In this document: positions 19,146-62,313 of the stretch, one piece after another
Layout: each line of letters starts with the position of its first letter
How positions within the stretch are numbered: position 1 is the first letter of the stretch
Assembly: GCF_023845585.1 (NCBI RefSeq)
Contig: NZ_JAMQHS010000008.1
Span: 1 to 64,000 of the forward strand
From: Clostridium sp. CMCC3677
GTDB lineage: Bacteria; Bacillota; Clostridia; Clostridiales; Clostridiaceae
Direction: 5' to 3'
Length of the DNA stretch: 64,000 bases
Notes under the pieces: model-generated
What the model saw: only the letters and a program-made list of their open reading frames with translations
Told to the model about the DNA's origin: nothing
The model's database searches: none
Translations under genes and position numbers: made by a program

Positions 19146-19257
19146 ATCTGTTTAAGTAAAGTGTTGATATATGCATAAGCAAAGTTGATTTAGTAATTGA
19201 ATTTAGGAACAATGTTAATTTGCCTAGTGCATATATCAACATATATTTAAAGTATAT
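19146..19257 (-). repeat. Dispersed palindromic repeat, short form, copy A
   Basis: About 112 bp. Its ends TGTTGATATATGCA and TGCATATATCAACA are perfect inverted repeats. Read on the minus strand it aligns along its length with the copy at 25056-25164 (shared CTAAATTCAATTACT versus CTAAGTTTAATTACT and ACTTTGCTTATGCATATATCAACAC). Outer flanks match the end of copy C (ATCAACATATATTTAAA). No coding potential. Confidence 0.75.
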
Positions 19258-19373
19258 ACATATCATAAAAAATTTTAAAAAAGTAAATAATATATATACT
19301 GCTTAAAAATGTGTTGTAAAAATTATTTTAAGAATATATAATGAATGTATAGTAAAAAATAATTTAATACTTA

Positions 19374-19485
19374 TATCTTCAGGGCAGGGTGTAAATCCCT
19401 ACTGGCGGTAAAGCCCGCGAGCTAAATTTATAGCAGATTCGGTGTAACTCCGAAGCCAACAGTATAGTCTGGATGAAAGAAGGTA
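19374..19485 (+). promoter_or_regulatory. FMN riboswitch (RFN element)
   Basis: The conserved core is visible: CTTCAGGGCAGGGTG, CCCTACTGGCGGTAAAGCCCGCGA, GATTCGGTG-AACTCCG-AGCC and AGTCTGGATGAAAGAAGG. P1 pairs TATCTTC with GAAGGTA. It lies ahead of ribU with a terminator at 19536, so FMN should switch off riboflavin uptake by premature termination. Confidence 0.95.
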
Positions 19486-19535
19486 ACCTATTAGGAATTA
19501 AGATAGTTTTATTCTTAATAATTTAGTATATGCCC

Positions 19536-19563
19536 TGATGTATTTATGCATCAGTTTTTTTGT
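19536..19563 (+). terminator. FMN-riboswitch terminator
   Basis: CTGATG pairs with CATCAG around a short AT loop, followed by seven or more T. The remaining 200 bp to ribU carry no gene. Confidence 0.85.
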
Positions 19564-19763
19564 TTTTTAGAGAGTTATGAAATGTAATTTTTAGCATACA
19601 ATTTATATAAAAATGTGCTTTAAGAAAACATAAAATCTAAAGAATAAAAATATTAAATTTAAGAACAACTTAATTTGTAATTTAATCTTACAAAGAGTAG
19701 TAAAACGTTATCTTAAGACTTAATAAGCTACACCAGGGAGATAATCTTTTGGGAGGCGTAAAA

Positions 19764-20351
19764 ATGAACAAAAACACAAACAAAACAATTAAAATTTCAT
19801 TATTATCAGCATCAGCACTTATACTTATGTACCTTGAAATTCCTTATCCAGTATTTCCATGGCTTAAAATTGATTTAAGTGATGTGCCAGCATTATTAGG
19901 AGCATTTGGATTTGGACCATTGGCAGGTGTAACTATAGAATTAATTAAAAACATATTGATTCTTTTAATTAAAGGAAGTCAAAGTGGATTTGTTGGAGAA
20001 CTTGCTAACTTTTTAGTTGGAGTATCTTTAATATTACCAGCAGGAATTCTTTATAAAAGAAATAAATCTAAAGAATCAGCTATTTTAGGAATGATTTTAG
20101 GTGGAGTTTGTATCGAAATTATAGGAATTATCTCAAATGTATATTTGCTTTTACCAGCATATGGTATGCAAATGAGCAGTGCAGAATTATTAAGATATGT
20201 TACTGTGGGTTTAGTACCTTTTAATGGAATAAAAGCTATATTGGTATGTACATTAACATATGTTTTATATAAAAAGGTGTCTGCATCTATATTTAAGGCA
20301 GAACCTAACTTTGGAAGTCCAGAAAAAAACTCAAAGACTATAACTGAATGA
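19764..20351 (+). CDS. ribU: Riboflavin ECF transporter S component RibU
   Basis: The membrane protein that binds riboflavin and hands it to a shared ECF energy-coupling module, which is not encoded nearby. It is 195 aa with about six helices and the family's early motif LEIPYPVFPWLKIDLSDVPALLGAFGFGPLAG, typical of RibU. GGGAGGCG sets the ATG at 19764 rather than the in-frame TTG at 19749. The FMN riboswitch upstream independently confirms the substrate. A bidirectional terminator follows. Confidence 0.95.
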   Translation: MNKNTNKTIKISLLSASALILMYLEIPYPVFPWLKIDLSDVPALLGAFGFGPLAGVTIELIKNILILLIKGSQSGFVGELANFLVGVSLILPAGILYKRNKSKESAILGMILGGVCIEIIGIISNVYLLLPAYGMQMSSAELLRYVTVGLVPFNGIKAILVCTLTYVLYKKVSASIFKAEPNFGSPEKNSKTITE

Positions 20352-20361
20352 TTAAATATAT

Positions 20362-20404
20362 AAAAATAATTCGTAGGCTAAATTAGCTTACGAATTATTT
20401 TTTT
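20362..20404. terminator. Bidirectional terminator between ribU and rimI
   Basis: AATAATTCGTA and TACGAATTATT form a perfect stem with an inner GCTAA/TTAGC-like pairing. A and T runs on either side serve both genes. It overlaps the 3' end of rimI. Confidence 0.85.
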
Positions 20405-20843
20405 CATCTATACGCCACATAATTATTGCATCTTCTTTATTATCTTGATAATAATTTTTCCTCACTCCTTGCTCTACAAATCCATATTTTTTGTATAATT
20501 CTTGAGCAGGAATATTGCTAGCTCTTACTTCTAAAGTATAAGCATTACAATTAGCACTTTTAGTTAATTTAACTAATTCACCTAATAAAGCAGAAGCAAC
20601 ATTTTTTCTTCTAAAATTAGGATGTACAGCTATATTTGTGATATGGGCTTCATCTATTATTATCCAAGCGCCTATAAAACCTATAACTTTATCATCACAT
20701 TTCGCAACTATATAATTAGCAAGAGGATTTGCTAATTCTTGAATATATGATTCTTTACTCCAAGATGTAGGGAAACTTAATAAGCTAATTTCTAAAACAT
20801 CATCAATATCAGTTTCAGTCATTAAACTAGTTGTTAGTTTCAC
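20388..20843 (-). CDS. rimI: Ribosomal protein S18-alanine N-acetyltransferase
   Basis: A GNAT-fold enzyme of 151 aa that acetylates the N-terminal alanine of S18 in the model organism. The acetyl-CoA region reads ITNIAVHPNFRRKNVASALLGELV, followed by LEVRASNIPAQELYKKYGFVEQGVRKNYY, the RimI signature. It starts at a GTG that overlaps the end of tsaB by 17 bp, with AAAGGATG upstream. The tsaE-tsaB-rimI order is conserved across Firmicutes. Confidence 0.92.
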   Translation of the reverse strand: MKLTTSLMTETDIDDVLEISLLSFPTSWSKESYIQELANPLANYIVAKCDDKVIGFIGAWIIIDEAHITNIAVHPNFRRKNVASALLGELVKLTKSANCNAYTLEVRASNIPAQELYKKYGFVEQGVRKNYYQDNKEDAIIMWRIDEKNNS

Positions 20844-21543
20844 TTTTTAATTTCATCCTTTTTTCATATTCCCTCTCAGCTTGAGGTTTTTTTAAATAAA
20901 ATGGAGCAGAGTTAGAATCATCATATTCACCATTTTTTAGTTTTATTAGTCCTAATTCACCCAATGAAGAAGCTCTAACTAAATTAAGATGATTTGGTGG
21001 AAAGAAACAATTATTACAATTTTCTAATATGTATTCCTTTGTATTATTAAGTCCATCACCAATGAACATAACATTTTCTCCTTTTTCATTAAGCATATCA
21101 ACTAGCTCATTTATATCAAGAGCAGAGTAATCCATTATTTGTTCTAACTTTCCGTTACAAGATTTATATAAGGCAGTATAAACATTGTTTCTTAATGCAT
21201 CCATTACAGGACAGATTATACCGTTAAATGGAGAAATACTATATGCAAGTGCATCAAGACTAGAAATACTTACATAAGGTTTATTTCCTCCAAAGCTTAA
21301 TCCTTTAATTGTAGCCATTCCAATTCTTAAACCTGTAAAAGAACCAGGGCCTTTAGATACTACAAAGCCATCTATAGAATCAATATCTAAATTACAGTTT
21401 TCTAATAAATTTTCTACTAAAGTCATTAATATAGTAGAGTGCTCTTTTTTATTGTTTAAAGTTATTTCTCCTAGTAATTTATCATCTTGAAGTAAAGCAG
21501 CAGTTGCAACTTTTGAAGATGAATCTATACTTAGTATAATCAT
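20827..21543 (-). CDS. tsaB: tRNA t6A synthesis protein TsaB
   Basis: A non-catalytic partner of TsaD in making threonylcarbamoyl-adenosine at position 37 of ANN-reading tRNAs. The protein is 238 aa with an ASKHA fold: ILSIDSSSKVATAALL at the start and VSKGPGSFTGLRIGMATIKGL near residue 60 are diagnostic. The ATG overlaps the tsaE stop (ATGA) and follows AAGGAG. tsaD itself is not in this window. Confidence 0.94.
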   Translation of the reverse strand: MIILSIDSSSKVATAALLQDDKLLGEITLNNKKEHSTILMTLVENLLENCNLDIDSIDGFVVSKGPGSFTGLRIGMATIKGLSFGGNKPYVSISSLDALAYSISPFNGIICPVMDALRNNVYTALYKSCNGKLEQIMDYSALDINELVDMLNEKGENVMFIGDGLNNTKEYILENCNNCFFPPNHLNLVRASSLGELGLIKLKNGEYDDSNSAPFYLKKPQAEREYEKRMKLKSETNN

Positions 21544-22001
21544 ATTTTTAACTCCTTTATATATTCATATTTTTTGCCGTAAGGTGTTAATGTTATCTTT
21601 CTATAATTATCACCTTTTTCTAAATCTTTTTCTATATTTATATGAAGAAACTCATCAGGAAGAATATCTTCAATATAATTTGCCCATTCTATGATAGACA
21701 CACTATCAGAAAAAATATAATCATCAAATCCAATTGCATATATTTCATCAGGATCATTTACTCTATATACATCAAAATGATTTAATTTTAATCTTCCGTC
21801 ATCATATTCATTTACAATTGTAAATGTAGGGCTTGTAATATCATCTTTTATATCTAAACCAAGAGCAATGCCTTTAGTTATATGAGTTTTACCAGTACCT
21901 AAATCTCCTGTTAGACAAATTATATCTCCTGAATTAAGTAATTTTCCTATTTCTATACCTAAGTTAGTAGTTTCATTTATGCTATAAACATTAAATTCCA
22001 T
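21540..22001 (-). CDS. tsaE: tRNA t6A synthesis ATPase TsaE
   Basis: A small P-loop ATPase that drives turnover of the TsaBD complex. It is 153 aa with Walker A GDLGTGKTHITKG near residue 32 and the family motif SPTFTIVNEY, then HFDVYR and SIIEWANY. The frame is open eight codons further up, but GAAAGGAG sits properly spaced from the ATG at 22001. It is the first gene of the tsaE-tsaB-rimI operon, with a 4-bp overlap with tsaB. Confidence 0.94.
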   Translation of the reverse strand: MEFNVYSINETTNLGIEIGKLLNSGDIICLTGDLGTGKTHITKGIALGLDIKDDITSPTFTIVNEYDDGRLKLNHFDVYRVNDPDEIYAIGFDDYIFSDSVSIIEWANYIEDILPDEFLHINIEKDLEKGDNYRKITLTPYGKKYEYIKELKI

Positions 22002-22330
22002 AAAAAGAACTCCTTTCACTAGCATTTAAACTTAATTTGTTTTTATATTAAAAATTATTGCCATCTTTTTATTTTATCTAATTTCAATTATAAAATCAAA
22101 GCTTATAATTTTACTTATAAAAATTAATCTATAATAATATTATATTTAAAGTTAGAATAATAGGGCAAATTAATTAATATAAGTTAAAAAAGTATACAAA
22201 AATATACATAATAAATTAAATTTAAATAAATTTTATAATAAAAATATATACATTTAACATATTTAGTTGATATAATATTACTAGAGTTTTATTTGGAAAT
22301 AATTTATATATATTTTCGGAGGAGATCGAT
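22002..22330. other. Divergent intergenic region, no gene seen
   Basis: About 330 bp of very AT-rich DNA between the minus-strand tsaE operon and the plus-strand ZnuA-like gene. It must hold divergent promoters; a TATAAT is present at 22271-22276, but no well-spaced -35 partner stands out. I see no conserved RNA or open frame. Confidence 0.5.
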
Positions 22331-23197
22331 TTGAAAAAGATTACCTTTATTATGATTGTAATAACTCTTACATTTTCTATAGGTATGGGAGTATTTGCGA
22401 ATCCGTTATTAGCTAATACTGAAAATAATCAAAAAGAAGATAGAGAGAAATATTTAAATATAATGACTGTTAATAAACCACAATATAAAATGGTAAAGAA
22501 AATTGTTAATAATAAACACAATGTTCAATACATGATGACAGAAGAAGCAGATATTAATGAATTTAAGTACAATAAAGAGATTATAGAAAATGTATCTAAT
22601 ATGGATCTTTTTATTTATTCTGGAACAAGTTTTGAACCTTGGGCAAATAGTTTTATAGATGAACTTAAAAAGGGTAGTATGGGAATAATTAATTTATCAA
22701 GAGGTATGAGGCTTCTAAATTATGGTGGAAATGAATCATCAAAAGAAAACCCTTATTACTTTGAAGGAATAGATTCATATAAGATAGCTTTATACAATAT
22801 AAAAGCTGCTGTTCAAGATAGAGACCCTAAAAATAGAGATTATTATGAAGAAAACTATAATAATGCTATAAAAGAATTAAATGTTCAAATAGAACCCTAT
22901 AGTGAAAAAATAAAAGGATTAAAAGATTATACATTCCTAGCTTTAAATGATAATTTTGATTATTTAACTAAAGACTTAGGATTACATGTAGTAAAATTAA
23001 ACAATTATGAAATATCAGAGTTTATAAAAGTTAATAATTTAGATGAAAAGAAACTAGTTATATTAAAAGATGGTACAGAACAAACTAATATGGATTTATC
23101 GAAATACAAAGTGGTGAATTTATGGAAGTATTACGGAAATATGTCTTTTGATGAGCTAATATTATACAACATAAAAGTATTAACAGATTTATTGTAG
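22331..23197 (+). CDS. ZnuA-like substrate-binding protein lacking metal ligands
   Basis: A 288-aa exported protein: signal peptide at residues 1-23 (hydrophobic core, then VFANPLLA) without a lipobox cysteine. The body follows the zinc/manganese cluster-A9 fold (MDLFIYSGTSFEPWANSFIDELKKG, then NPYYFEGIDSYKIALYNIKAA). In true family members these positions hold histidines (EPHDYEP, DPHSW). Here the first is replaced by ADINEFKY and the second by NPYYFE, so metal binding looks lost. The start is TTG at 22331 behind CGGAGGAG. No ABC permease or ATPase is adjacent. It may bind something else or be a remnant that stays expressed. Confidence 0.65.
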   Translation: MKKITFIMIVITLTFSIGMGVFANPLLANTENNQKEDREKYLNIMTVNKPQYKMVKKIVNNKHNVQYMMTEEADINEFKYNKEIIENVSNMDLFIYSGTSFEPWANSFIDELKKGSMGIINLSRGMRLLNYGGNESSKENPYYFEGIDSYKIALYNIKAAVQDRDPKNRDYYEENYNNAIKELNVQIEPYSEKIKGLKDYTFLALNDNFDYLTKDLGLHVVKLNNYEISEFIKVNNLDEKKLVILKDGTEQTNMDLSKYKVVNLWKYYGNMSFDELILYNIKVLTDLL

Positions 23198-23204
23198 AAA
23201 ATAG

Positions 23205-23233
23205 TTGATTTTTTAATAATCATGTTATATAAT
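23205..23233 (+). promoter_or_regulatory. Sigma-A promoter of the first tRNA-Trp
   Basis: TTGATT at 23205-23210 and TATAAT at 23228-23233 with a 17-bp spacer, 15 bp before the tRNA. Confidence 0.8.
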
Positions 23234-23247
23234 AAATACTGTTGTGA

Positions 23248-23322
23248 AGGGGTATGGCTCAACGGTAGAGTAGTGGTCTCCAAAACCATTGGTTCTGGGT
23301 TCAAATCCTAGTGCCCCTGCCA
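23248..23322 (+). tRNA. tRNA-Trp (CCA), copy 1
   Basis: The 7-bp acceptor stem AGGGGTA/TGCCCCT, anticodon loop CTCCAAA with anticodon CCA, T-loop GGTTCAAATCC and encoded CCA end all fit. It is identical base for base to the copy at 24929-25003. It has its own promoter and terminator. Confidence 0.96.
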
Positions 23323-23323
23323 G

Positions 23324-23367
23324 AAAAGGTCGTAACACGTTGTGTTGCGGCTTTTATTTTTTTGTCT
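23324..23367 (+). terminator. Intrinsic terminator after tRNA-Trp copy 1
   Basis: AAAAG-GT-CGTAACAC pairs with GTGTTGCG-G-CTTTT, followed by a T run. Confidence 0.85.
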
Positions 23368-23409
23368 AAAAATAAATGCTGTAAATTATCTATAGATAAT
23401 TTTTTTTAC

Positions 23410-23439
23410 TTTACAATAGAACTAATGTTCGTATAAAAT
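23410..23439 (+). promoter_or_regulatory. Promoter of the Y-family polymerase gene
   Basis: TTTACA at 23410-23415 and TAAAAT at 23434-23439 with an 18-bp spacer. A LexA-type box fills the spacer. Confidence 0.7.
23418..23432. promoter_or_regulatory. LexA (SOS) box
   Basis: GAAC-TAAT-GTTC at 23419-23430 followed by G matches the Gram-positive LexA operator GAAC-N4-GTTC. It sits between the -35 and -10 elements, where a bound repressor would block RNA polymerase. Confidence 0.75.
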
Positions 23440-23478
23440 TATAGTGAAGTAAGAATACATTTAGGGAGTGTAGATATA

Positions 23479-24702
23479 TTGGGTAGAAGTGATAAATTAA
23501 TTTTTCATATAGATGTTAATTCTGCATATCTTTCTTGGACAGCACTTAAACTTTTAAATGAAGGTAGCAATATAGACATAAGAAAAATACCATCAGCTAT
23601 AGGTGGGGATGAGGAAAAACGTCATGGTGTTGTTTTAGCAGCATCAATACCAGCCAAGAAGCTAGGAGTAAAGACAGGTGAGAGTTTATATGAAGCTAAA
23701 AAGAAATGTCCTAATTTAGTTATATATCCGCCAGATCATAGTTGGTACTTTAAACTTAGCAATGAAATGATAAAAATATTAAAGGAGTATTCTCCTAAGA
23801 TAGAAAGATATAGTATTGATGAATGTTTTATGGACTGTACTCATTATAAAGGTAATTATAATATGATGTCTGTAAATATCAAAAACAGGATAAGTGCAGA
23901 GCTTGGGTTTAACTGTAATATAGGAATATCAACAAATAAATTATTAGCTAAGATGGCAAGTGATTTTAAACCTAAGAATTCAATACACACTTTATTTAAA
24001 AATGAAATTAAACAAAAAATGTGGCCACTTCCAGTTGGAGAATTATTTATGGTTGGTAAATCTACTAAATTGAAATTAACTAAATTAAATATTAAGACAA
24101 TAGGAGAACTAGCTAATTTAGATGTTAATTTTTTAATTGAAAAAATGCATTCACATGGAAAACTTATATATGAATATGCTAATGGAATAGATAATTCTGA
24201 GTTAGTTGAATCAGAATCTTTAAAAATAAAAGGAATAGGAAATTCTACGACTCTTTCTAAGGATGTTGATAATACTGAAGAAGCTTTGAAAATCCTACTT
24301 TCTCTTACAGAAAATGTTTCAAGAAGGCTTAGAGAAAGTAAAAATTTATGTTCTATTGTTACTGTAAGCATAAAAACTAATAATTTTATATTATATTCTC
24401 ATCAAAAGGTTTTAAGTAACTATACAGATAATACTATGGAAATTTTTAAAGGAATAAAAAAAGCTTTTTATGAATGTTATAAAGGAGAAAAAATACGTTT
24501 ATTAGGAGTTAGACTTACTAAATTGTGTGATAATAAGTATTATCAGCCTAGTCTTTTTGATTTTAAAAATAATGAAAAACAGAAGAGTCTAGATATTACA
24601 ATGGATATGATAAGAAAAAAATATGGTAAGGAGTCTATAGTCAGATCTGAATTATTAAATTCGTCTGCAATAAATTTAAAAGATGATATAAATAAATACT
24701 GA
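23479..24702 (+). CDS. dinB: Y-family translesion DNA polymerase (DinB/Pol IV type)
   Basis: Copies past damaged bases at low fidelity. It is 407 aa. Catalytic acidic residues are in FHIDVNSAYLSW (residues about 8-19) and YSIDECFMD near 113. The helix-hairpin-helix region and little-finger domain follow. A beta-clamp binding motif, QPSLFDF, lies near residue 355. The N-terminal DVNSAYLSW marks a Firmicutes subgroup distinct from E. coli Pol IV (DMDAFFAS). The start is TTG at 23479 behind GGGAGTG. A LexA-type box in the promoter indicates SOS control. The gene lies between two identical tRNA-Trp genes. Confidence 0.92.
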   Translation: MGRSDKLIFHIDVNSAYLSWTALKLLNEGSNIDIRKIPSAIGGDEEKRHGVVLAASIPAKKLGVKTGESLYEAKKKCPNLVIYPPDHSWYFKLSNEMIKILKEYSPKIERYSIDECFMDCTHYKGNYNMMSVNIKNRISAELGFNCNIGISTNKLLAKMASDFKPKNSIHTLFKNEIKQKMWPLPVGELFMVGKSTKLKLTKLNIKTIGELANLDVNFLIEKMHSHGKLIYEYANGIDNSELVESESLKIKGIGNSTTLSKDVDNTEEALKILLSLTENVSRRLRESKNLCSIVTVSIKTNNFILYSHQKVLSNYTDNTMEIFKGIKKAFYECYKGEKIRLLGVRLTKLCDNKYYQPSLFDFKNNEKQKSLDITMDMIRKKYGKESIVRSELLNSSAINLKDDINKY

Positions 24703-24886
24703 TTAAATAAAAATATAAATTAATTATGTTATGAATAAATTTAATATAATTAGATAAGATAATGTTTTATTATTAGTTAAAAGTTGAAAATTATATTTTA
24801 TGTATTTTATCTTAGAATTTTAAATTTAATAAGTATAAAAAAGAAGATAAGTTTAATTTTACTATTAAGTTATTTTTTAAATCTTG

Positions 24887-24916
24887 TTGACATAAATATG
24901 GTATTCATGTTAAAAT
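24887..24916 (+). promoter_or_regulatory. Sigma-A promoter of the second tRNA-Trp
   Basis: TTGACA at 24887-24892 and TAAAAT at 24911-24916, 18 bp apart, 13 bp before the tRNA. The upstream stretch 24703-24886 holds nothing recognisable. Confidence 0.8.
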
Positions 24917-24928
24917 TAAAAACGACTT

Positions 24929-25003
24929 AGGGGTATGGCTCAACGGTAGAGTAGTGGTCTCCAAAACCATTGGTTCTGGGTTCAAATCCTAGTGCCCCTG
25001 CCA
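24929..25003 (+). tRNA. tRNA-Trp (CCA), copy 2
   Basis: Identical in all 75 bases to copy 1, including the encoded CCA, but with unrelated promoter and terminator sequences. Confidence 0.96.
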
Positions 25004-25007
25004 TAAG

Positions 25008-25039
25008 AAAAAGCTAGAATATAAGTTCTAGCTTTTTTT
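25008..25039 (+). terminator. Intrinsic terminator after tRNA-Trp copy 2
   Basis: AAAAAGCTAGAA pairs with TTCTAGCTTTTT through 12 bp around a 6-nt loop, followed by more T. Confidence 0.9.
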
Positions 25040-25055
25040 ATATTTAAAATTAATA

Positions 25056-25164
25056 CTCCGTTTTAAATGTGTGTTGATATATGCAATAGGTAAAGTGGCA
25101 TTCCTAAGTTTAATTACTCCGCCCACTTTGCTTATGCATATATCAACACTCTGCTAAAACAGAG
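25056..25164 (+). repeat. Dispersed palindromic repeat, short form, copy B
   Basis: A 109-bp imperfect palindrome bounded by CTCCGTTTTA and TAAAACAGAG. Inner arms TGTTGATATATGCA/TGCATATATCAACA are perfect and continue as AAAGTGG/CCACTTT-like pairing. It shares TTCCTAAGTTTAATTACT and CACTTTGCTTATGCATATAT with the other copies. Confidence 0.78.
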
Positions 25165-25174
25165 ACAAAATTAA

Positions 25175-25224
25175 ATAAAAAAAGATATTGATATTAAGTG
25201 ATTTTTTTAATATCAATATCTTTT
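25175..25224 (-). terminator. Terminator for the minus-strand FMN oxidoreductase gene
   Basis: A perfect 17-bp inverted repeat (AAAAGATATTGATATTA with its complement). Read on the minus strand, a T run follows the stem. It lies beyond repeat copy I, downstream of the oxidoreductase gene. Confidence 0.7.
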
Positions 25225-25254
25225 AAAAAGTAAATAATTAAATAGATAATTTTT

Positions 25255-25441
25255 ACTATTATATATAATAAGCAAAGTTGTATTTTAACTTAACCTTGAG
25301 GATTATCAAATAAAATTAAAAATAAGGGTAATTATTAAAATCTTATATATTTAGGTTAAAATGAGAATATATTTATTTTATTATGGATAAGTTTAATTAA
25401 TTTATACAACTTTACCTATGAATATATCAATAAAATGTGAA
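25255..25441 (-). repeat. Dispersed palindromic repeat, divergent copy I
   Basis: The left edge TATATAATAAGCAAAGTTG and right edge CAACTTTACCTATGAATATATCAATA match the two ends of copies A and B in reverse orientation. CAACTTTACCTAT is the complement of the left arm ATAGGTAAAGT of copy B. The middle is AT-rich and diverged. It is only about 90 bp from copy B. Confidence 0.55.
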
Positions 25442-25450
25442 TAGATTATA

Positions 25451-29648: not shown

Positions 29649-29649
29649 G

Positions 29650-30810: not shown

Positions 30811-33538
30811 GCAAGTTAATATAGAAAATTTTGCAGGGATAAAAGGAAGAATTATAAGCTTTGCTAATAAATTTAACTTAATATATGGTGAAAATGAAAA
30901 AGGTAAAAGTACAATAGAGAATTTTATAAAGATATGGCTTTATGGATTTGAAAAAAATCGTGGCAAAGATAATGATAGGAAAAAGTTTACTCCATTAACT
31001 GGCGGAAAAATAAGTGGAGAATTAACAGTTGAACATGAAGGGGTAACATATGTTATAAGAAGAAGTTTTGGATTAACTAAAAAAGAAGATACCTGTGAAA
31101 TACTTGATGAAGTAACTGGAGATAAAATAGATATACCATATAATAATGAACCAGGAAAATATTTTTTAGATATAAATTTATCAACATTTTCTAAAACTTT
31201 ATTTATAAATCAATTAGGGGTTATGGTAAATAAGGATAAAGAAGAAGAAATAATGGAGAAAATAACTAATACTTATAATTCAGGAGAAGAAAATGTATCT
31301 TTTAAGAAAGCAATAGAAGTATTAGAAAAAGGAAAAAAGAAAATTAAGACAACTAGGAAATCTGGGGAATTAGATTTACTTACAGAAAAGAAAAATTTAC
31401 TAAAAGAAGAATTATGGAATGCATATACTCTGTCAGAGGCAAACATAGAAAATGAAGAAAAATTATTAAATACTAAAAATGAAAAAGAAGAAATAATAAA
31501 GAAATTAGATAGTTTAGAATTATACAAGAAGTATATAAAAAAGAGTAATTTACAAAAAGATTATTTAGAAATTGCGCAATATTTAAAGAAGAGTGAAGAA
31601 CTTAAGAAAAAAGAAGAAGTAATAAATGAAGAACTAAATAGAAATTATACTAATATAAATAGTGAGTTTTTAGAAGAATTAAATAAAGAGTATAATAGAT
31701 ATTTAAATTTAAATGATATAAAACAAGAAAAGAAAAGAGAATTAAATATTTTACAAAATAAATTAAATGAAAAAAACAATGATTTTAAAGAATATAAAGT
31801 ATTAGATTCCCTTTGTGAAGAAGATATAAAAGATAAATTATATGTATTAAAAATAGAACAGGAAAATTTAAAGGAGAAATTATATAAAGTTGAGTCTATA
31901 GAAAATTCTATAGAAACATTTAAAAATGATTTAAATATTAGATCTAATAAAATGAGGAATTTGGAATATATAGCTGAATATAGAGAGGATATAGAGGAAA
32001 ATATTAATTTATATAAAGATAAATTAAAAGAACTAAAATATAAATTAGAATTATACTCATCAAACAATGAGAGGTGCTCTATAAAAAATATTAAGAATAA
32101 GATGATTTTTATTTATGTATTGTTTGCTTTGTTTTTAGTAGTTTTATTTATAGGTATTTTTAAAGAGAACTTTATAATAGATATCTTAACAGTACCTTTA
32201 CTAGCTATTTTGACTAAAGTTTATTTAAAGTATTCACTAATAATGAAGGAAGCTTCTATTAAAGAAAAAAATAAACTTAGCATACAAAAGCTAAAAAATG
32301 AAGTAGAACAATATGAAGAAAAATTGAATTTGCATATGAATGAAATTAATTGTAAGGATTATGAGAATTTAATAAAGCAATTATCACAATATGATTCATA
32401 TAAAATCTATAAGGATAATATTTATGCATCTATAAACTCTAAAGTTAAAGAAATTAATGATTTTAATATAGAAGAATTAAATAATAAATATAATAAAAAT
32501 AAGAAAGTACTAGAATCATTATTTAAATTATTAGAGTGTAATTCCATAGAAGAAACAATAAATAAAGTAAATATATATAGTAAATTTAAAAAAGAGTTAT
32601 TACCAATGGAATATAAAATTAGTTCATTAGCATTAGAACTAAAAGAAATAGATTTTCAACTAAAGGATAAAGAAGAAGATTTAAGAGAAAAGACAAAAGG
32701 AATGGAATTTGAAAATATTGATATATTGGATTTTCATATAAAAATTAAAGAGTATAAGGATAAAGTTAATAAAATAATGGAAGTAAAAAGTAATCTTAAT
32801 AGTGTAGAAGAAACATATAAGGTGCTTTTAAAAGATAGGAATATAGAAGAAATCAAAAAAGAAATTAAAAATATATTACCTGATGATTTAAGCTATTCTT
32901 ATAAATCAGAAGAAGATATAGAAAAAGAAATAAAAAAAAGTTCTAACAAGTTATTAAAAATAGAAAAAGAAATAAAAGATTTAGAACATCTTATAGAAAA
33001 ACGATATTTAGGTAAAAGAGCAATAGCTGAGATAGAAGAAGAATTATATGATGCTCAGGAAAAAATTTTAAAGTGTGAAAAAGAATTTAAGGCTTTAGAA
33101 GTAGCTTCTTTAAAATTACAAGAATCATTTAAAGAACTAAGAAGCAATATAGGACCTAAGTTGAACAATGAAGTATTAAAAAATTTTAATTTCTTAACAT
33201 TAAAAAATTATAAAGATGTTAAAATATCTGAGGACTATAAGTTAAAGGTGAGGGATAATAGCGTATTATTTGATTCAGAAATATTAAGTAATGGAGCTAA
33301 GGATCAGTTATATCTATCGCTAAGATTATCATTTATAAATATGCTGTTTAAAAATAAGAAAGTGCCTATATTTTTAGATGATGCATTTATACAATATGAT
33401 GATAATAGAAGAGAAAGAGCATTAAAGCTATTAATAAAAGAAGATTTTAATCAAGTAATATTTTTTACATGCCAAACAATAGAAAAGAATATTTTAGATA
33501 ATATTTCATATGATTATAATTTAATCGAATTAAGTTAA
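30797..33538 (+). CDS. SbcC/YhaN-type ATPase with apparent ATT or ATA start
   Basis: An SMC-like repair ATPase, about 913 aa. Walker A YGENEKGKST lies near residue 36. Two long coiled coils flank a central pair of membrane helices (residues about 435-480, MIFIYVLFALFLVVLFIGIF). The C-terminal ABC signature is LSNGAKDQLYLSLRLSF, with Walker B VPIFLDDAF. No ATG, GTG or TTG is in frame between the stop at 30791 and the ATG at 31223, which would cut off the Walker A. AGAGGTGA at 30786-30793 sits just before ATT (30797) and ATA (30800), and the protein IIIKQVNIENFAGI aligns with normal family N-termini. It may use a non-canonical start, or the read may have a base error. Confidence 0.85.
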   Translation: MIIIKQVNIENFAGIKGRIISFANKFNLIYGENEKGKSTIENFIKIWLYGFEKNRGKDNDRKKFTPLTGGKISGELTVEHEGVTYVIRRSFGLTKKEDTCEILDEVTGDKIDIPYNNEPGKYFLDINLSTFSKTLFINQLGVMVNKDKEEEIMEKITNTYNSGEENVSFKKAIEVLEKGKKKIKTTRKSGELDLLTEKKNLLKEELWNAYTLSEANIENEEKLLNTKNEKEEIIKKLDSLELYKKYIKKSNLQKDYLEIAQYLKKSEELKKKEEVINEELNRNYTNINSEFLEELNKEYNRYLNLNDIKQEKKRELNILQNKLNEKNNDFKEYKVLDSLCEEDIKDKLYVLKIEQENLKEKLYKVESIENSIETFKNDLNIRSNKMRNLEYIAEYREDIEENINLYKDKLKELKYKLELYSSNNERCSIKNIKNKMIFIYVLFALFLVVLFIGIFKENFIIDILTVPLLAILTKVYLKYSLIMKEASIKEKNKLSIQKLKNEVEQYEEKLNLHMNEINCKDYENLIKQLSQYDSYKIYKDNIYASINSKVKEINDFNIEELNNKYNKNKKVLESLFKLLECNSIEETINKVNIYSKFKKELLPMEYKISSLALELKEIDFQLKDKEEDLREKTKGMEFENIDILDFHIKIKEYKDKVNKIMEVKSNLNSVEETYKVLLKDRNIEEIKKEIKNILPDDLSYSYKSEEDIEKEIKKSSNKLLKIEKEIKDLEHLIEKRYLGKRAIAEIEEELYDAQEKILKCEKEFKALEVASLKLQESFKELRSNIGPKLNNEVLKNFNFLTLKNYKDVKISEDYKLKVRDNSVLFDSEILSNGAKDQLYLSLRLSFINMLFKNKKVPIFLDDAFIQYDDNRRERALKLLIKEDFNQVIFFTCQTIEKNILDNISYDYNLIELS

Positions 33539-38055: not shown

Positions 38056-38273
38056 GACTATGTTTTAAATATATGTTGATATATACAATAGGCAAAGTGG
38101 CATTGTAATTGGGCTTTTGGAATACTTAATGAGTATTGTCACATTTACTGCTTGTCACAATTTTATATTGGGAACAAGCTAAAATGGGACTATAATCATT
38201 TTTAGTATTCCTAAGTTCAATTACTCAGTCCACTTTGCTTATGTATATATCAACACTATACTAAAACATAGTC
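38056..38273 (+). repeat. Dispersed palindromic repeat, long form, copy C
   Basis: 218 bp with perfect terminal inverted repeats, GACTATGTTTTA and TAAAACATAGTC. Next come TGTTGATATATACA/TATATATCAACA, then AAAGTGG/CCACTTT, then nested inner arms GTAATTG...GGAATACT with AGTATTCC...CAATTAC, and a central hairpin GCTTGT...ACAAGC. The whole can fold as one branched structure. It is 17 bp beyond the 3' end of the minus-strand operon and could end its transcripts. Confidence 0.85.
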
Positions 38274-41920: not shown

Positions 41921-41985
41921 TATTATTATGTATGATACATGAAAATTTATATATTGTACACATGAATAGTTAAAAAAATAGTAAG

Positions 41986-42197
41986 GCTATGTTTTAAATG
42001 TGTATTCATATATGTAATAGGCAAAGTAGCATTGTAATTGGATTTTGAGAATACTTAATAAATATTGTCACATTTACTGCTTGTCTCAATTTTATATTGG
42101 GAGCAAGCTAAAATGGGACTATAGTTATTTTAGTATTCCTAAGTTCAATTACTCAGTCTACTTTGCTTATACATATATTAATACATAGATTTAAATA
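41986..42197 (+). repeat. Dispersed palindromic repeat, long form, copy D
   Basis: About 212 bp, aligned over its whole length with copy C at 38056-38273. Shared blocks include ACTTAAT-A-TATTGTCACATTTACTGCTTGT, TTTTATATTGGGA-CAAGCTAAAATGGGACTATA and AGTATTCCTAAGTTCAATTACTCAGTC. The left end GCTATGTTTTAAATGTGT is clear. The right end has drifted and merges with the hairpin at 42193. Confidence 0.82.
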
Positions 42198-45461: not shown

Positions 45462-45545
45462 GGTACAATGGCTGAGTAAGTTCAAAAAAATTAATATACA
45501 ATATTTATCTATCATGTATATCAACATAGATTTAAAATAGAGCCA
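45462..45545 (-). repeat. Dispersed palindromic repeat, truncated copy E
   Basis: Read on the plus strand, GGCTGAGTAAGTTCAA and ATCTATCATGTATATCAACATA match the reverse complement of copy C (GGACTGAGTAATTGAACT and CCTATTGTATATATCAACATA). The outer part of one end and most of the middle are missing. Confidence 0.55.
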
Positions 45546-54253: not shown

Positions 54254-54266
54254 ATTGGAGGTAGCA

Positions 54267-54908: not shown

Positions 54909-54926
54909 TATCGGAGGAGAATGTAA

Positions 54927-55724: not shown

Positions 55725-55736
55725 GGAGGGTCTTAA

Positions 55737-56003: not shown

Positions 56004-56126
56004 AGCTTATAATAAAATATTAATATTTTATTATGATTTGTTGAATTAATAGCTTTTTATAGAGAAAAATAAGATAATATATATATATAATTTTATTATA
56101 AATCTCTATATATTCGAGGTGAGGAA

Positions 56127-57260: not shown

Positions 57261-57309
57261 ATAAAAGATAAAAGCTAGATTAAATGGTTTAGAATAGGGA
57301 GTGGGATAT

Positions 57310-57432
57310 ATGAGAATAGCATTAATAGCACATGAACCAGATGTATCAGCATTGCTTAGGGTATGCGATGTACATAATATACCGGTTGTTACCAACTTAG
57401 GTACAGCAGATTTAATAATTAAACAATTTTAA
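57310..57432 (+). pseudogene. mgsA: Methylglyoxal synthase remnant with internal in-frame deletion
   Basis: A 40-codon open frame with a ribosome site. Its first eight residues, MRIALIAH, match the start of methylglyoxal synthase. From [19 protein letters not shown] onward it matches the enzyme's C-terminal part, with a short end [13 protein letters not shown]. The intervening roughly 80-90 residues, including the active-site aspartates and the phosphate-binding GTTG region, are missing. The join falls at a histidine that both segments share (ALIAH and PHEPDV), suggesting deletion between short repeats. The product cannot be an active enzyme. It occupies the normal clostridial mgsA position after rodA. 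Confidence 0.8.
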
Positions 57433-57472
57433 TAAAGGGTATTAATCTTCATGTTAGAAGGTTATATAGAAG

Positions 57473-57505
57473 CAGGTGATATTAATGTATCATCTGTTTT
57501 TTTTT
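57473..57505 (+). terminator. Intrinsic terminator after the mgsA remnant
   Basis: CAGGTGATA pairs with TATCATCTG around a 6-nt loop, followed by nine T. Confidence 0.88.
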
Positions 57506-57510
57506 AGAGT

Positions 57511-57577
57511 TCTTAAAGTAAATTCCTCTGTCCATGAGCTTTATACTACAATATCAACAATGTTTTAAAACATAGCC
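57511..57577 (+). repeat. Dispersed palindromic repeat, right-half copy F
   Basis: TTCTTAAAGTAAATTCCTCTGTCCA, then CAATATCAACAATGTTTTAAAACATAGCC, follows the right half of copy C (TTCCTAAGTTCAATTACTCAGTCCA and ATATCAACA...TAAAACATAGTC). The left half is missing. Confidence 0.55.
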
Positions 57578-57710
57578 TAATAAAATAGAACCAAAAAGCA
57601 TGTACTGTAATAAAATAATAGTATTTTTTTTATTTAGTAGTTAAATATTTCATAATATACGTTTTCCGTAAATATAATTTAATAAGGCATTATATTATAC
57701 CTAGTATTAA

Positions 57711-57752
57711 AGAAATAACTAGAATTAATAATCTTTAATTCTAGTTATTTCT
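57711..57752. repeat. Perfect 18-bp inverted repeat upstream of spoIVFA
   Basis: AGAAATAACTAGAATTAA and its exact complement with a 6-nt loop, ending 38 bp before the spoIVFA start codon. It could be a terminator with only a weak T run, or a leader hairpin. The rest of 57578-57790 is AT-rich and carries no gene. Confidence 0.6.
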
Positions 57753-57790
57753 CTAATATAAAATTTAAATCATTAATAATGGAGGGAAAT

Positions 57791-58588
57791 ATGAGTAACT
57801 ATAGAAGTCAATATGAAAGATACTACAAGAATATATTGAATCAAAAAAGAGGTATCAATACTAGAAAATCAATTAATCCTTATAATAAAAGATTAAGTTA
57901 TGCTAATGATTATACAAATTTAAAAAAGAAACCTAGATTTATTAACAAGTTATTATTTCAATGTGTATTTTCTGTAATATTATTTGCTATAATATTTTCT
58001 TTGAAAATTACGCCAATACAAAAAACTAGAGACATATATACATTATCAAAACAATATCTAACTCAAGACTTTAGCAAAGATATTAATTATTCTTATGTTA
58101 TTAGTGTTATTAATAAAATAAAGAGTACTGATTTAAAGGATAAAGCTGTAGATTGTATGAATTTACTTAAAGAAAAAACAAATAAAGTTGAAAAGACTAG
58201 CATTAAAGCCAAAATAAAAGATAATTATTGCTTGCCAGTTTTGGCTTCGTACATGAAATTGCAAGGTGATATTAAAGGGGTTTTCCTTGAAGGTAAAGAA
58301 GGAGAACAAGTTATTTGTAGTATGGATGGAACTGTTGTTAAAGCTGCAACTGATGATGGAGGACAAAATATACTAATAAATCATGGTAATGGAATTCAAA
58401 CATACTATGGAATGATTAAAAATTCTGATATTAAAGAAGGGGATGAAATAAAAAAAGGAGAGTATTTAGGAGATTGCAATAAAATATCTAATACTGAAAA
58501 AACAGGAGTAATATTTAAGTTTATTTATATGGGAAAGGAACAAGATCCAACTGAATATTTAGATTTTTCTAATTTGAAAAATGTATAA
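57791..58588 (+). CDS. spoIVFA: SpoIVFA-like M23-fold sporulation regulator
   Basis: A 265-aa bitopic protein that in Bacillus holds and restrains the SpoIVFB protease in the outer forespore membrane until a forespore signal arrives. A basic N-terminus precedes a membrane helix (residues about 46-68, LLFQCVFSVILFAIIFSL). The C-terminal part is a LytM/M23-like domain: GKEGEQVICSMDGTVVKAATDDGGQNILINHGNGIQTYYG. The zinc ligands H-x-H are not complete, so it is probably not an active peptidase. GGAGGG sets the ATG at 57791. spoIVFB follows after 28 bp. Confidence 0.85.
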   Translation: MSNYRSQYERYYKNILNQKRGINTRKSINPYNKRLSYANDYTNLKKKPRFINKLLFQCVFSVILFAIIFSLKITPIQKTRDIYTLSKQYLTQDFSKDINYSYVISVINKIKSTDLKDKAVDCMNLLKEKTNKVEKTSIKAKIKDNYCLPVLASYMKLQGDIKGVFLEGKEGEQVICSMDGTVVKAATDDGGQNILINHGNGIQTYYGMIKNSDIKEGDEIKKGEYLGDCNKISNTEKTGVIFKFIYMGKEQDPTEYLDFSNLKNV

Positions 58589-58616
58589 TGCAATATCAAT
58601 GACGTAGGAGTTGAAC

Positions 58617-59492
58617 ATGAAAAAATGGTATAGTATTTTTATTATAGAAATTTTAATAATATTTGCTATCTTAGATTTTAAGAGTACACTATTTATAAGT
58701 TTTTTTTGGATTATAGCACATGAATGTATTCATATATTGGTTGCTAAGAAGTTTGGTTGTAAATTTTATAATATGAAATTAAATTTATCAGGAACATATG
58801 CAGAACTAAGTGATGTTGATGAATTATCAGAAAAGAAAAAGCTTATTTTATATTTATCTGGTCCTGCATTTAATATTTTTATGGTTGTATTTTTATTTTT
58901 TATTCAGGAATATGTAGATTCTAATTTTATAAAAAGAAGTATAGATATTAACTTGAGTTTGGGAATATTTAATCTTTTACCAGCATATCCATTGGATGGT
59001 TCAAGAATATATGAAATATTGCTATCAAAAAAGTTTTTATATAAGGAATCTAAAAAAATCACAGGAATTTTTAGTTTTATTGTTTCTAGCATATTTTTTA
59101 TATTATTTATTATAATGATATTTTTACATAAAATAAATATAAGTCTATTTTTAGCTGCTATACTGATGACATATGCTACAATTAGAGAGAAAGAGAAGAC
59201 AATGTATATAATTATGAGTGATATGATTAAAAAATCAAGAAAATTAGAAAAGTATGATTATATAGAAAATAAAAGTATCTCGGTATATTATAAAAAGGGC
59301 TTAGTCAATGTACTAACATTAGTAGATAAAAATAAATTTAATACATTTTATGTTATTGATGATGATATGCAATTACTTAAAATAATTCATGAAGATGAAT
59401 TGTTAAGAGCTTTAAAGGAGTATGGAAATATAACTTTAGAAGAGTATGTGAAAAAGAACATTAAAAATTTATATGAAAATAATAAAATGTAA
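58617..59492 (+). CDS. spoIVFB: SpoIVFB-like site-2 (M50) intramembrane protease
   Basis: An intramembrane zinc protease expected to cut pro-sigma-K and so start late mother-cell transcription. It is 291 aa. The HExxH zinc motif is FWIIAHECIHILVAKKFG in the second helix, and the third ligand is in NLLPAYPLDGSRIYEILL. About five or six membrane helices are followed by a C-terminal CBS-like domain (SVYYKKGLVNVLTLVDKNKFNTFYVIDDD), which in Bacillus senses ATP. TAGGAG fits the ATG at 58617; a TTG two codons earlier is too close. Confidence 0.92.
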   Translation: MKKWYSIFIIEILIIFAILDFKSTLFISFFWIIAHECIHILVAKKFGCKFYNMKLNLSGTYAELSDVDELSEKKKLILYLSGPAFNIFMVVFLFFIQEYVDSNFIKRSIDINLSLGIFNLLPAYPLDGSRIYEILLSKKFLYKESKKITGIFSFIVSSIFFILFIIMIFLHKINISLFLAAILMTYATIREKEKTMYIIMSDMIKKSRKLEKYDYIENKSISVYYKKGLVNVLTLVDKNKFNTFYVIDDDMQLLKIIHEDELLRALKEYGNITLEEYVKKNIKNLYENNKM

Positions 59493-59570
59493 TTTAGGTA
59501 TTGTATGAAGTATTGGCAATAATAACGCTGTTTCAAATATACTATAATTGTGTTAGAATAGGGTTATCAA

Positions 59571-59605
59571 AAAATAAGAAGTATACTTGTTATACTTCTT
59601 ATTTT
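59571..59605 (+). terminator. Intrinsic terminator after spoIVFB
   Basis: AAAATAAGAAGTATA and its complement form a perfect 15-bp stem around CTTGT. Confidence 0.88.
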
Positions 59606-59700
59606 AATGTAGAAGATTACAAAAGTTTAAAAATATAACGTCCGAATGAAATAGAAAGAACAATCATATTTTATGATTTTTAAGGAGGAAATTTTTTAGA

Positions 59701-61554
59701 ATGAACAAAATTTCAGATGATATTTTATTTAAGGTTGAAAAGCCGTGTAGATATACTGGTGGAGAATTAAACCAAGTTATTAAAGAACCAAAAGAAGTTG
59801 ACATAAGATTTGCATTTTGTTTTCCAGATGTTTATGAGGTTGGAATGTCTCATTTAGGAAGTAGAATACTTTATCATACAATAAATAAAAGAAATGATAC
59901 ATATTGCGAAAGAACATTTGCACCATGGCCAGATATGGAAGAACAATTAAGAAAAAATAATATTCCATTGTTTACGTTAGAAACTCAAGATTCATTAGGT
60001 GAATTTGATATATTAGGATTCACATTACAATATGAAATGAGTTATACAAATATATTAAATATGCTTGATATGTCAGGAATAACTATTAGAGCATCAAAAA
60101 GAGGCGAAGATGAGCCAATAGTTATGGCTGGTGGTCCTTGTGCGTATAATCCAGAACCTTTATATGACATAGTAGATTTCTTTGAAATTGGTGAAGGCGA
60201 AGAAATGATGGATGACGTTTTAGAAGTATATAAAAAATACAAGGGTAAGGGTAAGAAAAAGGAATTCTTAAGAGAAATATCAAAAATTCAAGGTATTTAT
60301 GTACCTTCATTATATGATGTTACTTATAAGGAAGATGGAACAATAAAAGAATTTAAACCTAAATATGATGATGTTCCAAAAGTTGTTACAAAGAGAATTA
60401 TAAATAATTATACAGATGTTGATTTTCCAGAGAACATCATAGTTCCTTATACAGAAGTAGTGCATGATAGAGTAGTATTAGAAACATTTAGAGGATGTAC
60501 TAATGGATGTAGATTCTGCCAAGCAGGAATGATTTATAGGCCAGTTAGAGAAAAGAAAAGAGAAGACTTAGTAAAGCAAGCTAGAGAATTAGTTAAAAAT
60601 ACAGGATATCAAGAAATTTCATTATCTTCATTAAGTACTTGTGATTATTCTGAAATAGAAAAATTAATAAAAGATTTAATGGAAGAACATGAGCCAAATA
60701 AGGTTGGAATAGCGCTGCCATCAATAAGAGTGGATGCTTTTTCAGTTGATTTAATAAAGGAAATTCAAAAAGTTAGAAAAACAGGTTTAACTTTTGCGCC
60801 AGAAGCAGGATCTCAAAGAATGAGAGATATAATAAATAAGGGGTTAACTGAAGAAAGAATATTAGACGCAGCCAAGAGTGCATTTCAATCAGGGTGGAGT
60901 AAATTAAAGCTTTACTTTATGATTGGATTACCATATGAGAATATAGAGGATTGTGCTGCTATTGGAGAATTAGCTGAAAAAATAGTTGCAAAATATTATG
61001 AAATTCCTAAAGGTGTTAGAAATAAAGGACTTAGAGTTACAGTGAGTACTTCAATATTGGTACCTAAGCCATTTACACCATTCCAATGGAGTGCTATGGA
61101 AAGAATGGAAATTGTAAATAAAAAGATAAATGCTGTAAAAGATTCAATAAAAACTAGAGCTATAAATTATAATTATCATGAGCAAAAAACATCATTTATG
61201 GAATCATTATTTGCTAGAGGCGACAGAAGATTATGTGATGTTTTAATAAAAGCTTTTGAAAAAGGTGCTAAATTTGATGGATGGTCAGAGTATTTTAAAT
61301 ATGATGCATGGATGGAATCACTAGAAGAATGTAATGTAGATGGAGAATTCTATGTATATAGAGAAAGAGAATATTCAGAAATATTACCTTGGGACTTCAT
61401 TAATATCGGAGTAAATAGAAAATATTTAGAAATAGAAAATGAAAAAGCTAAAAGAGAAGAATTAACACAAAACTGTAGAAAAGGATGTACAGGATGTGGT
61501 GTTAATGTGAACTTTAAGGAAGGGGAATGTTTCGAAGGTGCGATACTTAATTAA
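59701..61554 (+). CDS. B12-binding-type radical SAM protein (TIGR03960-like)
   Basis: A 617-aa iron-sulfur enzyme. The N-terminal part is a B12-binding-like domain (IRFAFCFPDVYEVGMSHLGSRILYHTINKR, then ILGFTLQYEMSYTNILNMLDMSG). The radical SAM cluster motif is RGCTNGCRFCQAG near residue 262, followed by SLSSLSTCDY and LTFAPEAGSQRMRDIINKG. The C-terminus adds CRKGCTGCGVNVNFKEGEC, a second cysteine motif. The reaction is not established. It overlaps the DUF2344 gene by 17 bp, and both precede rng-rplU as in many Firmicutes, which hints at rRNA or tRNA modification. AAGGAGG precedes the ATG. Confidence 0.88.
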   Translation: MNKISDDILFKVEKPCRYTGGELNQVIKEPKEVDIRFAFCFPDVYEVGMSHLGSRILYHTINKRNDTYCERTFAPWPDMEEQLRKNNIPLFTLETQDSLGEFDILGFTLQYEMSYTNILNMLDMSGITIRASKRGEDEPIVMAGGPCAYNPEPLYDIVDFFEIGEGEEMMDDVLEVYKKYKGKGKKKEFLREISKIQGIYVPSLYDVTYKEDGTIKEFKPKYDDVPKVVTKRIINNYTDVDFPENIIVPYTEVVHDRVVLETFRGCTNGCRFCQAGMIYRPVREKKREDLVKQARELVKNTGYQEISLSSLSTCDYSEIEKLIKDLMEEHEPNKVGIALPSIRVDAFSVDLIKEIQKVRKTGLTFAPEAGSQRMRDIINKGLTEERILDAAKSAFQSGWSKLKLYFMIGLPYENIEDCAAIGELAEKIVAKYYEIPKGVRNKGLRVTVSTSILVPKPFTPFQWSAMERMEIVNKKINAVKDSIKTRAINYNYHEQKTSFMESLFARGDRRLCDVLIKAFEKGAKFDGWSEYFKYDAWMESLEECNVDGEFYVYREREYSEILPWDFINIGVNRKYLEIENEKAKREELTQNCRKGCTGCGVNVNFKEGECFEGAILN

Positions 61555-62251
61555 ATATACTAAAGAAGCAAATGTAAAATTTATTTCTCATCTAGATTTA
61601 ATGAGGACTATACAAAAAAATATTAGAAGAGCTGAGCTTCCAATGGAGTATTCAAAAGGGTTTAATCCACATATGACTATGTCCATAGCTCAACCACTAG
61701 CTGTTGGCGTGTATTCTGATGGAGAATACATGGATCTAGTATTTGCAGAGGAAATGAATGAAAAAGAAATTATAGATAGATTAAATTCAGTATCTTCAAG
61801 TGGAATAAAATTTAAAGAGGCAACTAAAATTCCATATGTAGAGGGGGAAAAGAAAGTTCCTCAGGGGATGGCATTAATTGATGCAGCGAGATATACAGCA
61901 AAAGTTCCTTATGAAAATACAGAAAATCTTGAAAATGAAGTTAATGAACTTTTAAATAAAAACCAGTGGAAGACAATAAAAAAGAGCAAAAAAGGTGAAA
62001 AAGAAGTAGATATAAAAACAATGATTAGAGAATTTAAATTTTGGATAAAGGATGATTATCTAGTTATAAATATGGTTATTAATTCAGGTAGTAGAGAGCA
62101 TTTAGCACCTGAATTGGTAGTTAAATATATACAAGAAAGAACTTCTAATGTTAAAACAGAATCTTTTGTAGATATAAAAAGAGAAGAAATGTATTTCTTA
62201 AAAGGTGAAAGATTATTACCATTATATAAAGCATTAGAATTTAATAAATAG
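61538..62251 (+). CDS. Radical-SAM-linked DUF2344 protein (TIGR03936-like)
   Basis: A 237-aa protein of the family that is nearly always next to, or fused with, the radical SAM gene upstream. It starts YLIKYTKEANVKFISHLDLMRTIQKNIRRAELPMEYSKGFNPH, the conserved core, then MSIAQPLAVGVYSDGEYMDL. No catalytic residues are evident. It is probably a substrate-recognition partner. The start is GTG at 61538, inside the end of the upstream gene. Confidence 0.88.
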   Translation: MRYLIKYTKEANVKFISHLDLMRTIQKNIRRAELPMEYSKGFNPHMTMSIAQPLAVGVYSDGEYMDLVFAEEMNEKEIIDRLNSVSSSGIKFKEATKIPYVEGEKKVPQGMALIDAARYTAKVPYENTENLENEVNELLNKNQWKTIKKSKKGEKEVDIKTMIREFKFWIKDDYLVINMVINSGSREHLAPELVVKYIQERTSNVKTESFVDIKREEMYFLKGERLLPLYKALEFNK

Positions 62252-62259
62252 TAATTATA

Positions 62260-62313
62260 GACTATGTTTTAAAACAGTGTTGATATTTAATAATAAAGCT
62301 AATTCATTTAGGA
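62260..62313 (+). repeat. Dispersed palindromic repeat, left-half copy G
   Basis: GACTATGTTTTAAAACAGTGTTGATATTTAATAATAAAGC follows the left end of copy C (GACTATGTTTTAAATATATGTTGATATATACAATAGGCAAAG). The first 13 bases are identical. It ends at the ribosome site of rng. Confidence 0.55.

Follow-up and report, generated by a model that had tools for sequence, protein, structure and literature searches.

The stretch of DNA analyzed here (the window; 64,000 nucleotides [nt] of contig NZ_JAMQHS010000008.1 from Clostridium sp. CMCC3677) carries a dispersed family of imperfect palindromes, for which the initial annotation had listed copies A to G and I. That observation is confirmed, the family being larger than described, and the interpretation that accompanied it is partly supported. 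We consider it highly likely that the repeats are a family of miniature inverted-repeat transposable elements (MITEs), that is, nonautonomous DNA transposons. The copies in the window are as follows.

19144..19259, no strand assigned: copy A, 116 bp, internally deleted and decayed, without the core; flanking 8-mers matching at 4/8 positions.
25054..25166, no strand assigned: copy B (listed as L031), 113 bp, internally deleted, with a perfect 8-bp target duplication, AAAATTAA.
25255..25441, no strand assigned: copy I, a degenerate relative with, by eye, the common inner arms only, ATAAGCAAAGTTG / CAACTTTACCTATGAATATATCA.
38056..38273, + strand: copy C, full length (218 bp), one hairpin throughout; flanking 8-mers matching at 5/8 positions, the duplication not being intact.
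38088..38245, + strand: core of copy C (L001:1533-1690), the section that shows cross-species conservation, with the apex GCTTGTC..GGAACAAGC.
41985..42197, + strand: copy D, nearly full length, with its left end at 41985 and a decayed, degenerate right end.
45462..45545, no strand assigned: copy E, a remnant with a single recognizable end at 45544 (17.8 bits).
57511..57577, no strand assigned: copy F, by eye a remnant of the second subfamily, with no end of at least 14 bits in the end matrix.
62260..62313, no strand assigned: copy G, by eye a remnant of the second subfamily, with one end, at 62260 (19.3 bits).

The boundaries of A, B, and C and the left end of D were set with the end matrix, which ignores the flanks. 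A to D are real and fairly complete copies, as had been claimed, whereas I is only a degenerate relative and E, F, and G are only remnants. The second subfamily (TGTTGATAT..AGTATAAAGCTCATGGACAGAG), to which F and G were matched by eye, occurs at full length in C. weizhouense and C. uliginosum. Copy C is predicted to fold at −97 and −90 kcal/mol on its two strands (z of about −14 each). The two size classes described initially did not hold up: lengths form a continuum, and A and B are short because an internal deletion has removed the core. By eye, B is the long form minus its center, lost at the short repeat GCATT/CATT, and the same 113-bp deletion form recurs, with 97% identity, at C150:142154-142266. 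Only B has an intact duplication among the window copies tested (A, B, and C). A candidate promoter inside copy C (38168-38196; 10/12 matching) was rejected, the region showing no excess over shuffles and other species showing no −10 element by eye.

Further copies in the genome had been expected, and many are present: a 32-bp end pattern (≤3 mismatches) was found at 87 forward and 88 reverse places, 175 in all, in the 3.64-Mb genome, and a reversed-pattern control was found at none. With copy C as the query, the best 40 of 366 candidates in this genome (G000) yielded 73 matches, which fall at about 40 places and lie in both orientations. An alignment of 30 copies places the ends, GGCT(A/C)TGTTTTA, outermost and inverted at both sides, followed by the inner arm GTGTTGATATATGCA and then the center. 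Forty-two distinct complete copies remained when both ends had to score at least 22 bits with 40 bp of flank available, all others being dropped; they span 60 to 325 bp, with a mode of 216 to 218 bp (18/42). There is also a smaller 46-bp form (L091) with a perfect 8-bp repeat, TAATAATA. Four loci (L187, L188, L189, and L190) hold 20- to 22-bp tip-to-tip palindromes, GGCTCTGTTTTAACAGAGCC, perhaps scars left by near-total deletion. Fourteen draft contig ends lie inside copies, so the draft assembly breaks at them, and the repeats may account for where it does.

Perfect 8-mers flank 25 of the 42 complete copies, against 0.75% of mismatched left-right pairs, and flanking direct repeats of 7 or 9 bp were found at none (0/42). 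The duplicated 8-mers are AT-rich and vary in sequence among copies, and copies without the core (75- to 141-bp classes) also show perfect 8-bp duplications. Perfect 8-mers were likewise present at 27/105 ends in C. uliginosum (control, 0.17%) and 4/16 in C. weizhouense (control, 3.3%), counts based on a looser end pairing that takes in wrong pairs; the flanks in these two species showed no perfect repeats at 5 to 7, 9, or 10 bp. Because of the duplications at 25/42 copies, we regard the elements as MITEs, the further traits of which (terminal inverted repeats, fixed-length duplication, small size, high copy number, and no coding capacity) are all present. Of the readings offered initially, a MITE is thus borne out by the 8-bp target-site duplications and inverted ends, whereas the size and ends do not fit repetitive extragenic palindromic (REP) elements, which are palindromes of 20 to 40 bp with a GTAG/CGTC tag and a RAYT transposase, and for which RAYT was not searched. 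Plasmid and phage collections searched for the element gave no match, nor did 7 kb of contig L255 compared with phages.

Copy C matches 14/98 genomes including its own, all of the same genus, and 0/39 outside it, and query positions 81 to 133 are the most conserved; this comparison took at most the best 8 candidates per genome, and its weakest relatives are doubtful (the match in G050 is unlike an element, and those in G033 and G045 are short forms made up of ends only). A covariance model of the ∼158-nt core (42 cores, 10 genomes), a search of the kind that the initial annotation had proposed, matches 17/68 genus genomes, again including the own one, with at least 43 matches in 13 genomes and 42, 38, 27, and 2 in the other four; it found no core in G050 or G045. 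In a contig collection, a degenerate core pattern retrieved 61 stretches, in C. uliginosum DSM 12992, C. weizhouense YB-6, and MAG_CA253, and an exact 26-mer retrieved none, the collection possibly omitting the window's own genome.

In the 42-sequence core alignment, 94.7% of cells are paired, and versions slid against each other drop to 32 to 49%. Two-sided changes occur at 13/22 pairs, in 124 cells versus 33.7 in shuffles, with 0/500 shuffles reaching any of five measures; the structure was derived from the same sequences, and relatedness inflates compensatory counts. This covariation shows that the hairpin has been kept, not the reason for keeping it. By eye, a T.T mismatch in TTCT[T]AATGG / CCATT[T]AGAA is retained over species.

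In MAG_CA253 and larger genomes, the core lies between different ends, TATAGATATCC..GGATATCTATA, a TA type presumably of the IS630 family. Among 130 loci, some of which overlap, the pattern TATAGATA.. (≤2 mismatches per end) picked out 73 TA-type copies that are distinct and complete, of 274 to 384 bp, and the near-invariance of their end bases is partly by construction. An 8-bp direct repeat was found in 0/73 of them at any of 11 boundary positions (one pair per locus), which would fit insertion at TA. A hidden Markov model (HMM) of 13 cores with GG-type ends matches 89/95 loci of the genomes with TA-type ends below 1e-5, and an HMM of TA-type cores matches 78/78 loci of GG-type genomes, with no matches in reversed-sequence controls; the loci were preselected as holding cores, so that homology and not frequency was tested, and the intermediate L124 was excluded from the TA-type model. 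The inner arms of L124, in G029, look intermediate by eye. Conservation thus extends to the core but not to the ends, and the hairpin center appears to have passed between two transposition systems. A third core subfamily (TTCTTCA..GTTGTTCC being one example), whose outer arms are different again, was seen at L248:3512-3669, L138:1769-1926, and L230:5573-5731.

The elements had been described as always intergenic. This holds for the complete copies of the own genome, of which 0/42 overlap open reading frames (ORFs) of at least 90 amino acids, but among 138 distinct cores with stable folds (10 genomes, all subfamilies) 9 overlap a predicted ORF, so "nearly always" is the better wording. Fourteen others lack a neighbor on one side; the remaining 115 lie in 74 tandem, 34 convergent, and 7 divergent settings, compared with 223, 58, and 46 such gaps in the same loci, counts that include the gaps holding copies. 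In tandem settings, the core (oriented with a margin of at least 13.8 bits) is antisense to the flanking genes in 61/74 cases and sense in 13 (P = 1.4e-8), antisense cores prevailing in every one of the nine genomes that have tandem cases. In three complete genomes (G029, G037, and G043, which enter both this count and the ten-genome count), tandem cores are antisense in 42/52 cases (P = 9e-6). Gene 3′ ends lie at a median distance of 66.5 bp (n = 142), compared with 200 bp for 5′ ends (n = 88). Terminators, called with a home-made detector, are modestly enriched beside elements (13/84 flanks versus 75/1350 control flanks; P = 0.0012).

Many copies hold a nested IS200/IS605-like module (the M module) of ∼68 bp; two modules were folded, and each has two hairpins. 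A 66-nt query found at least 26, 44, and 37 matches in G000, G038, and G005, respectively (best 40 candidates in each). Of 30 loci, three were too short, and the other 27 were read by eye: 25 have the module inside an element, in either arm, after TTAA, with which the query itself began, and L287 and L311 look alone. In C. uliginosum, a pattern that required TTAA found a clean insertion, TTAA, M module, TGAATATT versus TTAATGAATATT. Of the phage contigs L254 and L255, one has the module and one lacks it at the same element, with bases altered on one side, and its far side is altered in own and phage copies. We take the module to be akin to the IS200/IS605-type PATEs: it resembles them in its ∼68 bp, its two hairpins, and its place 3′ of TTAA without duplication, and it differs in that no TnpA turned up for it, no search for TnpA / Y1 (HUH) having been made.

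As to the enzyme that moves the elements, the majority end, GGCTCTGTTTTAAA, agrees at 11/14 bases with the IS6/IS26 consensus GGTTCTGTTGCAAA, in which GG and G7 are nearly fixed according to PMC6807381; position 5 is A or C. Single ends agree at a mean of 9.1/14 bases, with GG tips at 57/84 and G at position 7 at 74/84. According to PMC7986276, IS6 elements make 8-bp repeats, and a pair of MITEs in the family measure 227 and 336 bp. An intact ISL3 element of G051 (1,383 bp; 11 matches, nine aligned) has, by eye, 8-bp AT-rich duplications, and its ends begin with GGCT like the MITE ends and then differ (CAACACTAAAAAC); the aligned copies include L406, L410, and L412-L418. The ends would best fit an IS6/IS26-type enzyme, with an ISL3-type enzyme as the next candidate. 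Since no intact partner was found and the ends agree only in part, the family of the mover is something that we infer.

Taken together, we propose that the MITEs are mobilized in trans and that their conserved, strand-biased hairpin center is probably active as RNA near gene 3′ ends. A DDE transposase acting in trans would recognize the ends, GGCT(A/C)TGTTTTA, and cut AT-rich target DNA with a stagger of 8 bp. Being palindromic, copies would readily lose internal stretches between short direct repeats, giving smaller forms (as seen for B compared with C, the mechanism being our suggestion). Copies tend to lie beside gene 3′ ends, some by terminators, where insertion may harm least. On the simplest account, the core, transcribed with the upstream gene, would then form a long bulged hairpin that, in one orientation, may influence what becomes of the mRNA.

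Several results weigh against this proposal. In the window, A, C, and D lack an intact 8-bp duplication, and there is no clean empty site: the sole available pair, L254 and L255, is a secondary deletion. Here BLAST had been suggestive, and the alignment of these near-identical phage contigs (L254:2072-2321 versus L255:5674-5679) revealed the deletion of one copy between ACAT repeats, with the element's last bases kept, so that this candidate was rejected. No autonomous partner with the MITE ends was found by profile searches (PF01610, PF13610, and PF12762), by the outer-end pattern, or by reading one-ended copies inward, so that the check proposed initially, for a transposase gene carrying the same ends, gave none in the genomes searched. 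IS6 transposase (PF13610) gave no match in the own genome, the only one searched for IS6, which is why the elements are not filed as IS6 members. ISL3 is represented in the own genome by two decayed fragments only and occurs in 4/17 other genomes, the intact one having different inner ends, and IS1595 occurs in 1/14 genomes (G033), flanked by other inverted repeats, TGGCAAAAC. Six small contigs read as N could hold the partner. An outer-end-only pattern in 6 genomes likewise gave no partner, covering 20 own places plus returned loci among the matches listed, and among 36 end pairs 600 to 3,000 bp apart in 1.04 Mb of loci, none had a perfect 8-bp duplication (best, 6/8), their reading frames not having been domain scanned.

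On the side of the core, covariation in a palindrome can arise without selection, from template-switch correction or gene conversion, and the strand bias could follow replication. By replichore, cores are antisense in 32/36 cases in G029, 15/24 in G037, and 14/22 in G043. These counts and those that follow take the origin to be at coordinate 0 and the terminus at half, an assumption with which gene direction agrees in G029 and G037, the left half of G043 being an exception. Relative to the leading strand, 10/17 convergent and 5/8 divergent cores are antisense, together 15/25 (P = 0.42). In tandem settings, cores are antisense in 39/47 cases where the genes run with the fork and in 3/5 where they run against it. 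The comparison of the 39/47 co-oriented tandem cases with the 15/25 convergent and divergent ones (P = 0.046) leans toward transcription as the cause of the strand bias, without settling it.

The explanation that fares best beside our proposal, and to which we allow a good chance that nonetheless falls short of even, is that the elements are MITEs and nothing else. Correction templated by a palindrome is a known source of mutations, and the likeness of the cores would reflect common descent plus such hairpin-templated correction of mismatches; the strand bias would be an insertion preference set by transcription or fork polarity. The 8-bp duplications are what it predicts, and since copies lacking the core (75 to 141 bp) have perfect duplications and the 113-bp deleted form occurs at two loci, the core may be dispensable for transposition, unless these copies lost it after they had inserted. 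It does not account for conservation that the core shows and the ends do not, or for single mismatches such as T.T that persist over species, which mismatch correction should erase. At the other extreme, the conserved unit may be the hairpin core itself, a strand-biased structured RNA of Clostridium 3′ regions that has used two unrelated transposition carriers and in which the IS200/IS605-like module lands; this is a tentative view that we hold to be rather doubtful.

That the repeats are a structured RNA gene, or a family of cis-regulatory RNAs, repetitive without having been transposed, is very improbable: covariation, strand bias, and 3′-end proximity would suit it, but perfect AT-rich 8-bp duplications at 25/42 copies contradict it, RNA genes being without these. 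The structured RNA of the initial annotation therefore stands as an addition to the MITE reading, through the covariation of the core and its strand bias relative to genes, and not as an alternative to it. Misassembly or repeat collapse, which the 14 draft contig ends inside copies might suggest, is contradicted by the same family in separately sequenced named genomes and single-contig genomes and has a negligible chance of being correct.

The initial annotation knew no named family like these elements, and no copy is covered by an Rfam match at the gathering score, a check that did not extend to ISfinder, so that a known insertion-sequence family is possible. At the gathering score, the Rfam matches in the window are two riboswitches (SAM, 281-382; FMN, 19371-19488, ∼110 bp downstream of copy A), raiA RNA (6097-6305; 198.8 bits), and two tRNAs, all of them outside the copies. 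The two tRNA matches score equally (23248-23319 and 24929-25000) and flank a Y-family DNA polymerase gene, copy B lying after the second. A permissive search of 10 loci gave no element match at the gathering score; 10/11 matches fell under it, and the remaining one, the molybdenum riboswitch of L130, lies next to the element and outside it. Elsewhere in the window, a 771-amino-acid frame (31223-33538) has no Pfam match at 0.001.

No publication on this repeat family was found, judging by titles and abstract openings in a search whose scope left out subscription papers, preprints, and ISfinder, and the main text of a review of prokaryotic MITEs (PMC10969869) has no occurrence of "Clostridi." Among known systems, the IS6/IS26 MITEs MITEBth2 and MITEHarch3 are alike in their 8-bp duplications, GG tips, cTGTt and caaa in the ends, and lengths of 227 and 336 bp, as given in PMC6807381 and PMC7986276. 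The Clostridium elements are set apart from them, by description and not by sequence comparison, in being almost wholly hairpin and in having a core shared across species. Bcr1 is mobile, with a 5-bp TTTAT duplication. It is also intergenic, at 147 to 167 bp, with a conserved predicted structure in the Bacillus cereus group, according to PMC2267715. It belongs to another genus, and the comparison is one of descriptions, not sequences. ERIC and Correia (NEMIS) elements show TA-type insertion, and although they come from other genera, the TA-type Clostridium relatives are closer to them in this respect. PMC2229807 describes transcripts of these MITEs forming structures that act on the mRNA of adjacent genes, with orientation being crucial for the effect of ERIC on mRNA. 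Clop-1 of C. perfringens and Clot-1 of C. tetani are likewise families of stem-loops repeated between genes, and both species bear the name Clostridium; compared by description, they differ in size, at 93 and 74 bp (PMC2267715). A bacterial MITE is as a rule defined by its ends; in the present family it is the ends that differ from one related species to another, and the center stays, covaries, and keeps its strand. If the strand bias reflects transcription, the 13 genomes with at least 43 matches would amount to a genus-scale natural experiment on mobile hairpins kept for a role in mRNA. The kind of element, a MITE, is known; the unusual feature is a conserved, covarying, strand-biased center under two kinds of ends.

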